A stretch of 48,458 nt of DNA from Deltaproteobacteria bacterium (GTDB lineage: Bacteria > Desulfobacterota > Syntrophia > Syntrophales > UBA2192), in contig JAAYEC010000025.1 of NCBI GenBank assembly GCA_012728915.1, positions 1 through 48,458 of the forward strand, read 5' to 3'. The notes beneath the pieces were generated by a model. That model was not told where the DNA came from and made no database searches. It saw only the letters and a program-made list of their open reading frames with translations. Positions within the stretch are counted from its first letter, which is position 1, and every line of letters begins with the position of its first letter. Shown one piece after another: positions 42,045 through 46,982 of the stretch. The position numbers and the translations under genes were made by a program.

Positions 42045-42308
42045 TCACGCACCCATCACCCTATCGCCCAGAAACGAAGCCATGCGCTCTTCCGACAGGG
42101 CGATGTCGAGCGGAACCCATTCTCCATTCACCATCACGCTGGTGGCACTCCGGACCCGGCACTTCATCGCCTCTTCCGAGTCGGTCAAATGAATCTGCAC
42201 GTCGACCCTGTCGCCGAACCGCTCCTTCATTTTTCTCGCAACGTCCAGTGCGGCAGCACAACTCCGTCAGCCGGGGTTTCCCGAATGAAAGACTCGCAGC
42301 TTCACCAC
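42045..42308 (-). CDS. Thioredoxin-like selenoprotein with in-frame TGA (UxxC)
   Basis: An open frame of 87 residues plus stop, interrupted once by TGA at 42267-42269 in the same frame. It starts at GTG 42308 (or GTG 42305) with AGGGAGG eight bases upstream. Reading the TGA as selenocysteine gives VVKLRVFHSGNPG-U-RSC, then ALDVARKMKERFGDRVDVQI, HLTDSEEAMKCRV, SATSVMVNGEWVPLDIAL. That is a first beta strand, a redox U14-x-x-C17 site at the helix start, and a thioredoxin-like remainder. The reading frame and amino-acid quality are equally good on both sides of the TGA. A small stem-loop follows the TGA. It is the last gene of the thiamine operon, 64 bases after the methyltransferase. Alternative: a Cys/Trp codon mutated to stop. 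Confidence 0.72.
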
Positions 42309-42372
42309 GGCGTTTCCCTCCCTTCTCGCCACAGGATCCCGCTTTCTCCCGACAGGTCGACACGAAGCGGGA

Positions 42373-43008
42373 TCACGGCGCACCCAGATGCTTGGAGCCT
42401 CTGACAACGACAAAGCTTCCCCTGCCGTGACCTTCTTCAACAGACAGGCCGCTGCTGGAGTCCCTGAAGAGCGTTTGCCTGTATTCAAAATCGGAAAACC
42501 CCGCGCGTGACAACATGCTTTCCACATCCTGAACGGAATAAAAGGCGGCATCCCGGTAAAACAGGCTTCGATCCTTTTTGAGGCGATATTGGCGACCCAG
42601 CGCGCTTTCCCTGTCGATGAAGCCGATGACGAGCGCTCCCTCCGGCCTGAGAACGCGATGCGCTTCCCGGAGCGCCAGTTCCACATCGTCGAGGAAACAG
42701 ATCACCGTCACCATCAGGACAAAGTCGAATTCGCCGTCGGAAAACGGGAGAGCCTCGGCTGTCGCCTCGAACACAAGCAGGCCGTGCCGGCGGGCCAGCT
42801 CCGCCATGCGGGGCGAAGGCTCGACACCGACGGGAATGCCCAGCGGTCCGGCGAACCTCCCCGTGCCGATGCCGATTTCAACCCCTTTCCCGCCGACGGG
42901 GATCAACTCCCTCACGGCGGCAAGCTCGGCAAGATAGATCTCCCGATGCCTGTCGAACCACGCGTCGTATTGCTCGGCATGTTCGTCAAACGTGGCAATT
43001 CTCGCCAT
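42373..43008 (-). CDS. SAM-dependent class I methyltransferase
   Basis: A 211-residue methyltransferase. The N-terminus ATFDEHAEQYDAWFDRHREI is followed by motif I VEIGIGTGRFAGPLG, the acidic GVEPSPRMAELARR strand, FDFVLMVTVICFLDDVE (motif IV region) and HRVLRPEGALVIGFIDRES. It belongs to the UbiE/Methyltransf_11 type; the substrate is unknown. ATG 43008 is preceded by GGGAGG. It lies 17 bases after thiC, so it is transcribed with the thiamine genes, though it is not a known thiamine enzyme. Confidence 0.85.
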   Translation of the reverse strand: MARIATFDEHAEQYDAWFDRHREIYLAELAAVRELIPVGGKGVEIGIGTGRFAGPLGIPVGVEPSPRMAELARRHGLLVFEATAEALPFSDGEFDFVLMVTVICFLDDVELALREAHRVLRPEGALVIGFIDRESALGRQYRLKKDRSLFYRDAAFYSVQDVESMLSRAGFSDFEYRQTLFRDSSSGLSVEEGHGRGSFVVVRGSKHLGAP

Positions 43009-43025: not shown

Positions 43026-44360
43026 TTATTCCGGTTCCAGCCCCGCCGGCGCCTGTCGGTTGCCGGGATCTCGCTTCTTCCGCCCCGTCCTGACGGCGCA
43101 GAGATCCCCGCACATCGTGCATCCCTCTTCTTTTGCGCTGGCGCTCTTCTCGAGCCACGCCCGCGAGCGCGCGGGATCGAGGGACGCCGCGACCTGGCCC
43201 TCCCAATCGAGTTCCCTGCGGGCCCGGGCCATGCGGCGATCCCGTTCGATCGCCCCCGGGATCCCCTTGGCGATGTCGGCGATATGGGCGGCGATCTTCG
43301 AGGCGATGACGCCTTCCCGAACATCGTCGAGGGTGGGAAGCCGCAGGTGCTCCGAGGGGGTCACGTAGCACAGGTAGTCCGCCCCCGCCCAGCCGGCGAT
43401 GGCCCCTCCGATGGCGGCCGTGATGTGGTCGTACCCGGGGGCGATGTCCGTGGGCAGCGGCCCCAGGACGTAGAAGGGCGCCCCGCCGCAGAGGCTCTTC
43501 TCCAGAAGCACGTTGGCTTGAATCTGGTTTATCGGGACGTGCCCCGGGCCTTCGATCATGACCTGGACGCCGCGCTCCCGTGCCCTGCGGGCAAGCTCGC
43601 CGAGCAGGATGAGCTCCTGGAGCTGGCCGCGGTCCGTGGCGTCGGCCAGGCAGCCCGGCCGCAGGCCGTCGCCCAGGCTCAGGACCATGTCGTACCTTCT
43701 GGCGATCTCGAGGAGCCGGTCGTACTGCTCGTAGAGAGGGTTCTCGCGGTTGTTGAAGTCCATCCAGTGGGCGAGAATCGAACCCCCGCGGCTGACGATC
43801 CCCAGGAGCCGGCCCTGCTTCTCGAGGCAGGCGACGCTCTGCCGCGTCACGCCGCAGTGGACGGTGACGAAGTCCACGCCGTCCTCGCCGTTCTCCTCGA
43901 CGGCCTGGAAGAGCTCATCGGCCGTCATCTCCACGATGGCCTTACCGACGTCTACGGCTTTCACGGCAGCCTGGTAGATCGGTACGGTCCCCACGGCGAC
44001 CGTCGATGCCCCGATGACGGCTCGCCGGATCGCCCCGAGGTCGCCACCGGTGGAGAGGTCCATGATCGTGTCCGTCCCCGCGGCAATGGAGACGCGGATC
44101 TTCTCCATCTCCAGGGCCATGTCGGCCCGGTCCTTCGAGGTGCCGATGTTCGTGTTGATCTTCGTCCGCAGGCCCTTGCCGATGGCCAGTGCCGGAATCG
44201 TGCGGTGCCGGTTGTTGCGGATGACGACGATCGTCCCGTCCTCCACACCCCTGCGGATCGTCTCGGGCTCGACGTTTTCGAGCTCCGCGCAGAGTTTCAT
44301 CTCCCCGGAGAGGATCCCCCGTCTTGCCATTTCCAGTTGTGTCAAGTCACCTGTTCTCAT
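43026..44360 (-). CDS. thiC: Phosphomethylpyrimidine synthase ThiC
   Basis: A 444-residue radical SAM enzyme that turns aminoimidazole ribotide into the HMP-P pyrimidine of thiamine. Hallmarks are INTNIGTSKDRADM, MDLSTGGDLGAIRR, DFVTVHCGVTRQS, SRGGSILAHWM, SLGDGLRPGC and MIEGPGHVPINQI. The C-terminal cluster motif reads CTMCGDLC: two residues between the first pair and three before the last Cys, where many ThiC have CxxCxxxxC. The length fits the shorter ThiC group lacking the long N-terminal domain. It lies 103 bases after thi4 in the TPP-controlled operon. Confidence 0.96.
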   Translation of the reverse strand: MRTGDLTQLEMARRGILSGEMKLCAELENVEPETIRRGVEDGTIVVIRNNRHRTIPALAIGKGLRTKINTNIGTSKDRADMALEMEKIRVSIAAGTDTIMDLSTGGDLGAIRRAVIGASTVAVGTVPIYQAAVKAVDVGKAIVEMTADELFQAVEENGEDGVDFVTVHCGVTRQSVACLEKQGRLLGIVSRGGSILAHWMDFNNRENPLYEQYDRLLEIARRYDMVLSLGDGLRPGCLADATDRGQLQELILLGELARRARERGVQVMIEGPGHVPINQIQANVLLEKSLCGGAPFYVLGPLPTDIAPGYDHITAAIGGAIAGWAGADYLCYVTPSEHLRLPTLDDVREGVIASKIAAHIADIAKGIPGAIERDRRMARARRELDWEGQVAASLDPARSRAWLEKSASAKEEGCTMCGDLCAVRTGRKKRDPGNRQAPAGLEPE

Positions 44361-44463: not shown

Positions 44464-45237
44464 TTACCCGGCGGCCAGGATCTGCTCGGCCGCCTTGCGA
44501 CCCGACAGGAGCATCCCGCCGAAGATGGGCCCCATGCGCGGCCCCCCAAAGGCGGCGTTGGCCGACATGCCGGCCACGTAGACGCCGGGGCAGATCTCCC
44601 GGGTATTGTCGACCGTCAACCGTTCGGCCTTTTCCGACCACATGGAGCGCTCCCCCATGAGCTTGCCCGTCGGGGTGTTGAACGTCACATCGGCCTTGCG
44701 CTCGATGACGTGCAGCACCTCCGTGTCGTGCCCCGTCGCGTCGATGACAGCCCTCGCGTGGATCGTCAGCGGGTCGACGTGAAGCCCCGCCATCTCCACG
44801 GGCGACCAGGTGATGACGAGCCCCATGACGCGGTTGTCCCGGATCACCACGTCCTCCACGGTGATGCAGTTGAAGACCTTCGCCCCGGCCTGGACGGCCC
44901 GGGAGCAGATCGTGGTGACCGCCTCGATGGCGTCGGCCGTAAAATAGCCCGGCTCGTATTCTTCCGTCCGGACCCCGAAGTGATCGAGAATCCCTTTTGC
45001 CTCAGCCTGGACGACGATCTCGTTGAACATCATCCCGCCGCCCCACATGCCGCCGCCGATGCTGAGCTTGCGTTCGTAGAGGGCGACCTTCTTTCCGCCC
45101 CTCGCCAGGAAGTAGGCCGCGACAAGACCCGAGGGCCCGCCGCCGACAACGGCCACATCGACATCGAGATGCGCCAGCAGCTTCTTCGTGTACGTCTCGA
45201 CAATGGCCCGTGTGATGGTGACTTCGTTCAATGCCAT
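44464..45237 (-). CDS. thi4: Thiazole synthase Thi4 (His-type, sulfide-dependent)
   Basis: A 257-residue Thi4/Thi1 protein making the adenylated thiazole precursor from NAD and glycine. The dinucleotide site is [16 protein letters not shown], and [17 protein letters not shown] and [20 protein letters not shown] are family signatures. In yeast a suicidal Cys lies before M-D-P. Here the corresponding segment reads [10 protein letters not shown] with His153, as in methanogen Thi4 proteins that use free sulfide catalytically. This fits an anaerobic host. No thiG, thiS or thiH is seen in the window. It lies 13 bases after thiD-thiN. Confidence 0.93.
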
Positions 45238-45250
45238 GGTTGTATCCCTC

Positions 45251-46600
45251 CTACTGCCTCCTCAATGCTCTCGACACCTTGAGCACCTTCTCGACCACCT
45301 CGGACGGGCTGCGTCCGAGGATGCGGACGATGGGCTCCTTGCCGTCGCCTCCCCGGTCGAATACGGCATCGGGGATTCCCCTTCGCCGCGACAGGGCCTC
45401 GGTCGTCCCCCACTCGAGGGACGAGCCCTCGCGGCGCCTCACGTCCTCCGGCTCGTCGGCCCGGTCGAAGCTTGCCACGTCGAATCCGAGGCCCTTCAGG
45501 GTCTTGACGATATCCTCGGAGAAGCGGATGTTCATGGCCGACCGGTACCCGCCGTCGAAGCGCATGACCGCCAGGATCACCTTGGCGACGTGGCTCGAGG
45601 CCCCGAAGGCCGGATCATGCAGGGTTTCCACGTTTTCCCCGACCCGGATGATGCGCCCGGGGACGGCGGCCACCTCCGCCGCCGAGGACGCGCCCGCGAG
45701 GGCATAACCGAAGTTGGACTGGATCTCGGGGACGATGTTTCCCGCGCGCCCGCCCTTGAGCCTCGCGACGGCCGTCTTCAACTCCTCGATGCAGCGCCAG
45801 CGCTCGCCCTCGCGGAAAACAGGGGCCAAGTGGTTCGTCGGGCCCTGGCCCCCGCCGATCGGGAGGCCGAACCGGATGGCCTCGGTGACATAGCTCTTCG
45901 CCCTTTCCACGGCCTCGGGCACCCCGTAGCCCTGGGCAAGCCCCGTGGCGATGGCTGAAGCGAAGGTACATCCCGTGCCGTGGGTGTGCTTCGTGTCGAT
46001 GCGCCCGGCCGCAAACTCGTGGAAACTCTTCCCGTCGAAGAGCAGGTCCACGGCGTCACCGTCGAGATGCCCGCCCTTTACGACGACGTTCTTCGCTCCG
46101 AGCTTGCGGATCAGGACAGCCGCTTTCTTCATGTTCTCCTTCTTCACAATCCGCATCCCCGCAAGGACCTCCGCCTCGGGGATGTTCGGCGTGACGACCG
46201 CGGCCAGCGGGATCAGGTCCCTGATCAGGGTCCCGCGGGCCTCCTCGCGAAGCAGGGGGCTGCCGCCCTTGGCTACCATGACGGGATCGACGACGAGCTT
46301 GCGGATCCTGTACTGCCGGATCTTCTTCGCCACGCAGCGGATGATCTCTGACGAGGAGAGCATGCCCGTCTTCGCCGCGTCGACGCCGATGTCGCTTGCC
46401 ACGGAGTCGAACTGCGCGTCGATGAACTCGACGGGGATCTCGTAGACGCCCTGGACGCCGAGGGTGTTCTGGGCCGTCAGCGCCGTGATGACGCTCATGC
46501 CGTATCCGCCGAGCGCGGCGATCGTCTTCAGGTCGGCCTGGATCCCGGCCCCCCCGCCGGAATCGGACCCCGCTATTGTCAGGACTCGCTTCACTTCCAT
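45251..46600 (-). CDS. thiD: Bifunctional HMP(-P) kinase / thiamine-phosphate synthase (ThiD-ThiN)
   Basis: A 449-residue fusion. Residues 1 to about 265 are Thi[46 protein letters not shown] and [17 protein letters not shown], phosphorylating HMP and HMP-P. Residues of about 275-449 form ThiN ([36 protein letters not shown]), the alternative thiamine-phosphate synthase found in archaea and some anaerobes in place of ThiE. It therefore joins the thiazole and pyrimidine halves. It heads the operon; AAGGAGG precedes the ATG. A riboswitch and terminator lie upstream. Confidence 0.95.
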
Positions 46601-46880: not shown

Positions 46881-46894
46881 TGAACCTTGATTGC

Positions 46895-46982
46895 TGCTTC
46901 CGCCACTCCCTACGCTGGCATTACCCAGGTCAGGTTCGAAGGGTATACTCTCAGCCTGTACGGCACCCCCAGGATCGGCTAT
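46895..46982 (-). ncRNA. TPP riboswitch (THI box)
   Basis: On the minus strand the thi-box core is complete: GGGGGTGCC, GGCTGAGAGTATACCC, GAACCTGACCTGGGTAATG and CCAGCGTAGGGAG, in the right order and spacing for a thiamine pyrophosphate aptamer. It controls the minus-strand thiD-thiN, thi4, thiC operon, not the MFS gene on the other strand. The linked terminator indicates transcriptional control. Confidence 0.97.

Follow-up and report, generated by a model that had tools for sequence, protein, structure and literature searches.

A probable TsoX selenoprotein gene following a methyltransferase gene and thiamine biosynthesis genes in a Syntrophales bacterium

In the current analysis we have identified, in a stretch of 48,458 nucleotides from a deltaproteobacterium of the order Syntrophales (referred to here as the window), a gene on the minus strand at 42045-42308 that is very likely to be tsoX, with the UGA at codon 14 decoded as selenocysteine (Sec) by means of a downstream SECIS hairpin and with a product of 87 residues adopting a thioredoxin fold. 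The TsoX family has already been described and is present in curated libraries, and the copy in the window is an additional member with some new context. In the review PMC13188914 TsoX is an HSGNPxU motif selenoprotein with a UxxC arrangement and is credited to Haft & Tolstoy 2025 mSystems. A first-pass annotation made from the letters of the window had proposed an unannotated thioredoxin-like selenoprotein at this position. It was correct as to the selenoprotein, but it overlooked the existing name and the fact that the hairpin is weaker here than in the relatives; the word unannotated holds for the raw sequence and fails for NCBI, where a curated family model exists.

The reading frame extends from a GTG at 42308, preceded by a Shine-Dalgarno-like GGGAGGG, to a TGA stop at 42047-42045. 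It is interrupted by a single in-frame TGA at 42267-42269, the codon of the U in the U-x-x-C motif, and Cys17 is encoded at 42258-42260; the frame, its one TGA and the ribosome binding site are as the first-pass annotation had given them. The frame is still open upstream of the GTG and contains an in-frame ATG at 42686, so that the choice of the GTG rests on the Shine-Dalgarno-like sequence and the length of the homologues. With the standard code only an ORF of 61 residues (42045-42230) is obtained from the window, which is the fragment that gene callers had been predicted to report; with standard gene calling the small selenoprotein confirmed here would be cut short. The C following the TGA had also been considered a weak termination context. 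The true stop of tsoX likewise reads TGAC, and this context has been dropped as evidence for readthrough.

For the profile searches the TGA was read as Cys. Residues 2-81 of the product score 123.7 bits with the NCBIfam family NF045809, 'HSGNPxU motif (seleno)protein TsoX', whose cut-off is 52, and the family motif HSGNPx-U-xxC occurs in it as HSGNPGURSC. This score, together with the retention of the TGA and of the sequence following it in homologues, places the frame far beyond chance. The window protein thus resembles the family entry in its near full-length match, the HSGNPxUxxC motif, a single Sec and the U-x-x-C pair. It differs in context, the gene lying with a methyltransferase in a TPP-riboswitch operon, in a genome where a search for TsoA found none. 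Several relatives of TsoX are encoded in operons of the Tso (three selenoprotein) type together with TsoA, and at least one of these also with TsoC, whereas TsoA is missing from 22 of the 30 genomes with tsoX as well as from that of the window.

The genome encodes the complete machinery for Sec, the presence of which the first-pass annotation had proposed to check. The genes selA (contig C7, 609 bits), selB (C71, 370 bits), the tRNA-Sec gene selC (C30, 76 bits) and selD (C79, 385 bits), which itself carries an in-frame TGA, have all been identified. A second match to the tRNA-Sec model (L011, G000:C8:33654-33748), with 49.8 bits against a gathering threshold of 47, is probably another long-arm tRNA.

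We searched for tsoX in relatives, in the order (155 genomes) and in the phylum (395 genomes), amounting to roughly 530 genomes, all of one phylum. Thirty genomes, that of the window included, encode a TsoX above the cut-off. The Sec site is TGA in 29 of these genes, spread over many families, and Leu (TTA) in one; the alignment shows no variation at His8, Gly10 or Cys17. Homologues with Cys at residue 14, which had been expected, number zero among these roughly 530 genomes of a single phylum, the only copy above the cut-off with no stop at the site being the one with Leu. This copy (L055 158-397, G438:C179) still has a paired SECIS hairpin and has either lost its Sec recently or been misassembled. 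The sole match in a further collection of contigs, in Acetivibrio (L018), was rejected as a chance match of 11 residues and is no relative.

The family match, the Sec machinery and the conservation of the TGA at the site together argue for the selenoprotein. One competing explanation, that the TGA is an ordinary stop and that the 61-residue ORF, beginning at an internal ATG, is either a gene of its own or a chance ORF, takes its appeal from the standard code, which does give such an ORF. We regard it as very improbable, as the residues before and after the TGA fit the family model within a single frame, the relatives conserve them, and the genome has the machinery to decode the codon. Codons 3' of the TGA, compared with a sister genome (G004), have a dN of 0.16 and a dS of 0.45, so that the part of tsoX downstream of the TGA is under purifying selection. 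Still less credible is a sequencing error concealing a TGC or TGG, for which no support was found: in the sister and 27 other relatives this codon is TGA too, and Cys occurs in none of them. A third explanation, that of a decaying gene, concerns the SECIS hairpin and is weighed with it below.

A SECIS-like hairpin, CGCACU-GGAC-GUUGCG, is located at 42237-42252 of the minus strand, 14 nt 3' of the TGA, and is homologous to a hairpin of the family, with a C-U mismatch and a U-G pair in its stem. Most relatives have the consensus GGCUAU-AGGY-GUAGCC or a paired variant of it at the same distance of 14 nt. Each of the six positions of the family stem is paired in 28-30 of the 30 sequences, and compensatory exchanges are seen from GC to CG and from UA to CG or AU. 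The stem overlaps conserved codons, and constraint on the protein therefore adds to its conservation. The codon choice at the apex of the hairpin points to selection on the RNA: AUA is the codon for Ile there in 20 of 21 cases, whereas the neighbouring genes use it for 390 of their 2500 Ile residues (Fisher p about 2e-15, with kinship ignored) and the rest of tsoX for 25 of 93. Folding of the stretch 3' of the window's TGA by itself revealed no significant structure (z near 0), and the case for the predicted SECIS rests on such comparative evidence.

The published bSECIS model (PMC13188914) asks for a loop of 3-9 nt with G among its first two bases, a stem of at least 4 pairs, a spacing of 16-37 nt and a minimum free energy of -7.5 or lower. 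For the homologous hairpin in the window the spacing and the loop G are attainable, but its energy (-4.1 or weaker) falls short, and the only hairpin of the window with sufficient energy (-9.8) is a non-homologous one. Several relatives with a perfect stem, folded alone, also miss -7.5, and the energy limit is hence not a decisive criterion.

The weakness of this hairpin is the starting point for the view that the window's tsoX, though a member of a selenoprotein family, is in early decay, with its SECIS degraded and little or no Sec inserted. Relative to the sister, three base changes at the apex have cost one pair, have replaced the residues T-G by L-D and have taken the energy from -9.6 to -4.1 kcal/mol. 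The dN/dS of tsoX (0.33) is higher than that of the adjacent methyltransferase (0.22), and tsoX is missing from 5 of 7 congeneric genomes. Against decay, the frame is intact, all of the catalytic residues are retained and the dN/dS is well under 1. The hairpin also keeps a spacing of about 20 nt, and the GG of its loop and its remaining stem of 4-5 pairs resemble those of a copy of the family that is fused to another enzyme in genome G293. Decay is accordingly judged unlikely, and with tsoX read as a functional selenoprotein gene, Sec insertion is likely to be efficient in the organism of the window, as far as can be judged from sequence.

AlphaFold2, run on 29 homologues, gave a model of TsoX with a pLDDT of 93.8 and a pTM of 0.83. 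The model comprises strands at residues 2-8, 35-41, 56-60 and 63-65 and helices at 15-34, 45-50 and 73-85, and the top structural neighbours found with Foldseek are thioredoxins (TM about 0.7). Sec14-x-x-Cys17 is situated at the N-terminus of helix 1, between it and the first strand, which agrees with the placement given by the first-pass annotation. The fold and the redox pair with a spacing of two residues are common to TsoX and the small thioredoxins of the MJ0307 type (Thioredoxin_3, TIGR00411, PDB 1nho). TsoX differs from these in scoring under the family cut-offs (21.2 against 24.8 for Pfam Thioredoxin_3 in the case of the window protein), in having Sec for the first Cys, in lacking CGPC and in having Thr at the cis-Pro position. 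A cis-Pro facing the active site, a criterion of the thioredoxin family proper, is absent; in the residue alignment to thioredoxins its position is occupied by Thr56, and 28 of 29 homologues have Thr there. According to PMC2757866, the cis-Pro is believed to belong to the substrate site and may block metal binding. Ordinary thioredoxin behaviour can therefore not be assumed for TsoX.

The gene closes an operon on the minus strand headed by a TPP riboswitch at 46890-46980 (RF00059, 61.9 bits, gathering threshold 54.3), in accordance with the first-pass annotation. The riboswitch is followed by a thiD-thiN fusion for HMP kinase and thiamine-phosphate synthase (45251-46600, PF08543 and PF10120), a thi4-type thiazole synthase gene (44464-45237, PF01946, 276 bits), thiC for HMP-P synthase (43026-44360, PF01964, 642 bits), the gene of a class I SAM-dependent methyltransferase (42373-43008, Methyltransf_11) adjoining tsoX, and tsoX itself. 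It is probably co-transcribed with the thiamine genes under the riboswitch. In the sister genome the thiDN-thi4-thiC-methyltransferase genes lie at one contig end and methyltransferase-tsoX at another, and the order is therefore very probably common to both. Clustering of the loci reveals thi genes next to tsoX only in these two genomes of the same genus. The role in ThiC/Thi4 chemistry suggested earlier does not generalise, and a general thiamine role for TsoX was rejected. Between the methyltransferase stop and tsoX an inverted repeat (42335-42374) has been observed, with 19-nt arms of 79% complementarity (outer arms GATCCCGCTT/AAGCGGGATC) and without a T run. It is weaker in the sister and is possibly a processing or attenuation hairpin.

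A link to the adjacent methyltransferase, also suggested in the first-pass annotation, has gained support, as the pair recurs in several families. The same type of methyltransferase, which has an invariant Cys in a VT-x-x-CF motif, adjoins tsoX on either side in 6 of the 30 loci. Among the 155 genomes of the order, 16 encode the methyltransferase (>200 bits), 12 encode tsoX and 5 encode both (hypergeometric 0.003, with kinship ignored), with the genes adjacent in 4 of the 5; the remaining 11 have the methyltransferase without tsoX, which speaks against the explanation favoured here. Of the 7 genomes of the genus, the 2 that have tsoX are also the 2 that have the methyltransferase. MBL-fold proteins adjoin the methyltransferase in some genomes lacking tsoX, and in other genomes MBL-fold and CoA-disulfide-reductase-type proteins adjoin tsoX itself. 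Some of the latter neighbours appear to have a rhodanese-like C-terminal part. In G293:C195 (L090 6600-8000) an in-frame fusion joins a TsoX domain with HSGDPNUKPC to a complete thioredoxin reductase (384 bits).

The family, fold, Sec codon, Sec machinery and, for the family, the decoding of Sec are well supported by computation. In the window UGA codon 14 is very likely translated as Sec by SelA, SelB, SelC and SelD with the SECIS hairpin just 3' of it, and where helix 1 begins Sec14 and Cys17 would pair as selenol and thiol. We propose tentatively, and with less than even confidence, that TsoX may act as a small redox carrier by selenenylsulfide/selenol-thiol exchange, that it may be recharged by a flavoenzyme of the thioredoxin reductase type, and that it may hold a substrate of the adjacent SAM methyltransferase, a compound containing sulfur, selenium or a metalloid, in the reduced state. 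The reductase step is suggested because of the fusion in G293. It is also conceivable, and in our estimate rather doubtful, that TsoX and the methyltransferase form a two-gene module that can be placed under TPP control, in which TsoX, having Thr where thioredoxins have the metal-excluding cis-Pro, would use its Sec/Cys pair as a binding or delivery site (for a metal, Fe-S, selenide or a metalloid) for methylation and not as a disulfide reductase. The recurrent methyltransferase partner, the thioredoxin reductase fusion, the occurrence of Sec and never Cys in the searched genomes and the conserved Thr at the cis-Pro position are additions to the named family and provide testable leads on its role.

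Further ORFs with in-frame TGA codons have been observed near tsoX in other genomes. Directly 3' of it in three loci (L073, L075, L084) lies a DsrE-family ORF with a conserved in-frame TGA (FFVUGVC), which has a Pfam DsrE match and no NCBIfam match at 1e-5; DsrE-like UxxC selenoproteins are already included in PMC13188914. TsoA-like and DsrE-like genes near the G293 fusion also carry in-frame TGA. In two loci (L082, L083) an MbdU-like protein with SGCUG, again with an in-frame TGA, is encoded 5' of tsoX and matches the first 60% only of NF045648, with 364 bits against a cut-off of 600.
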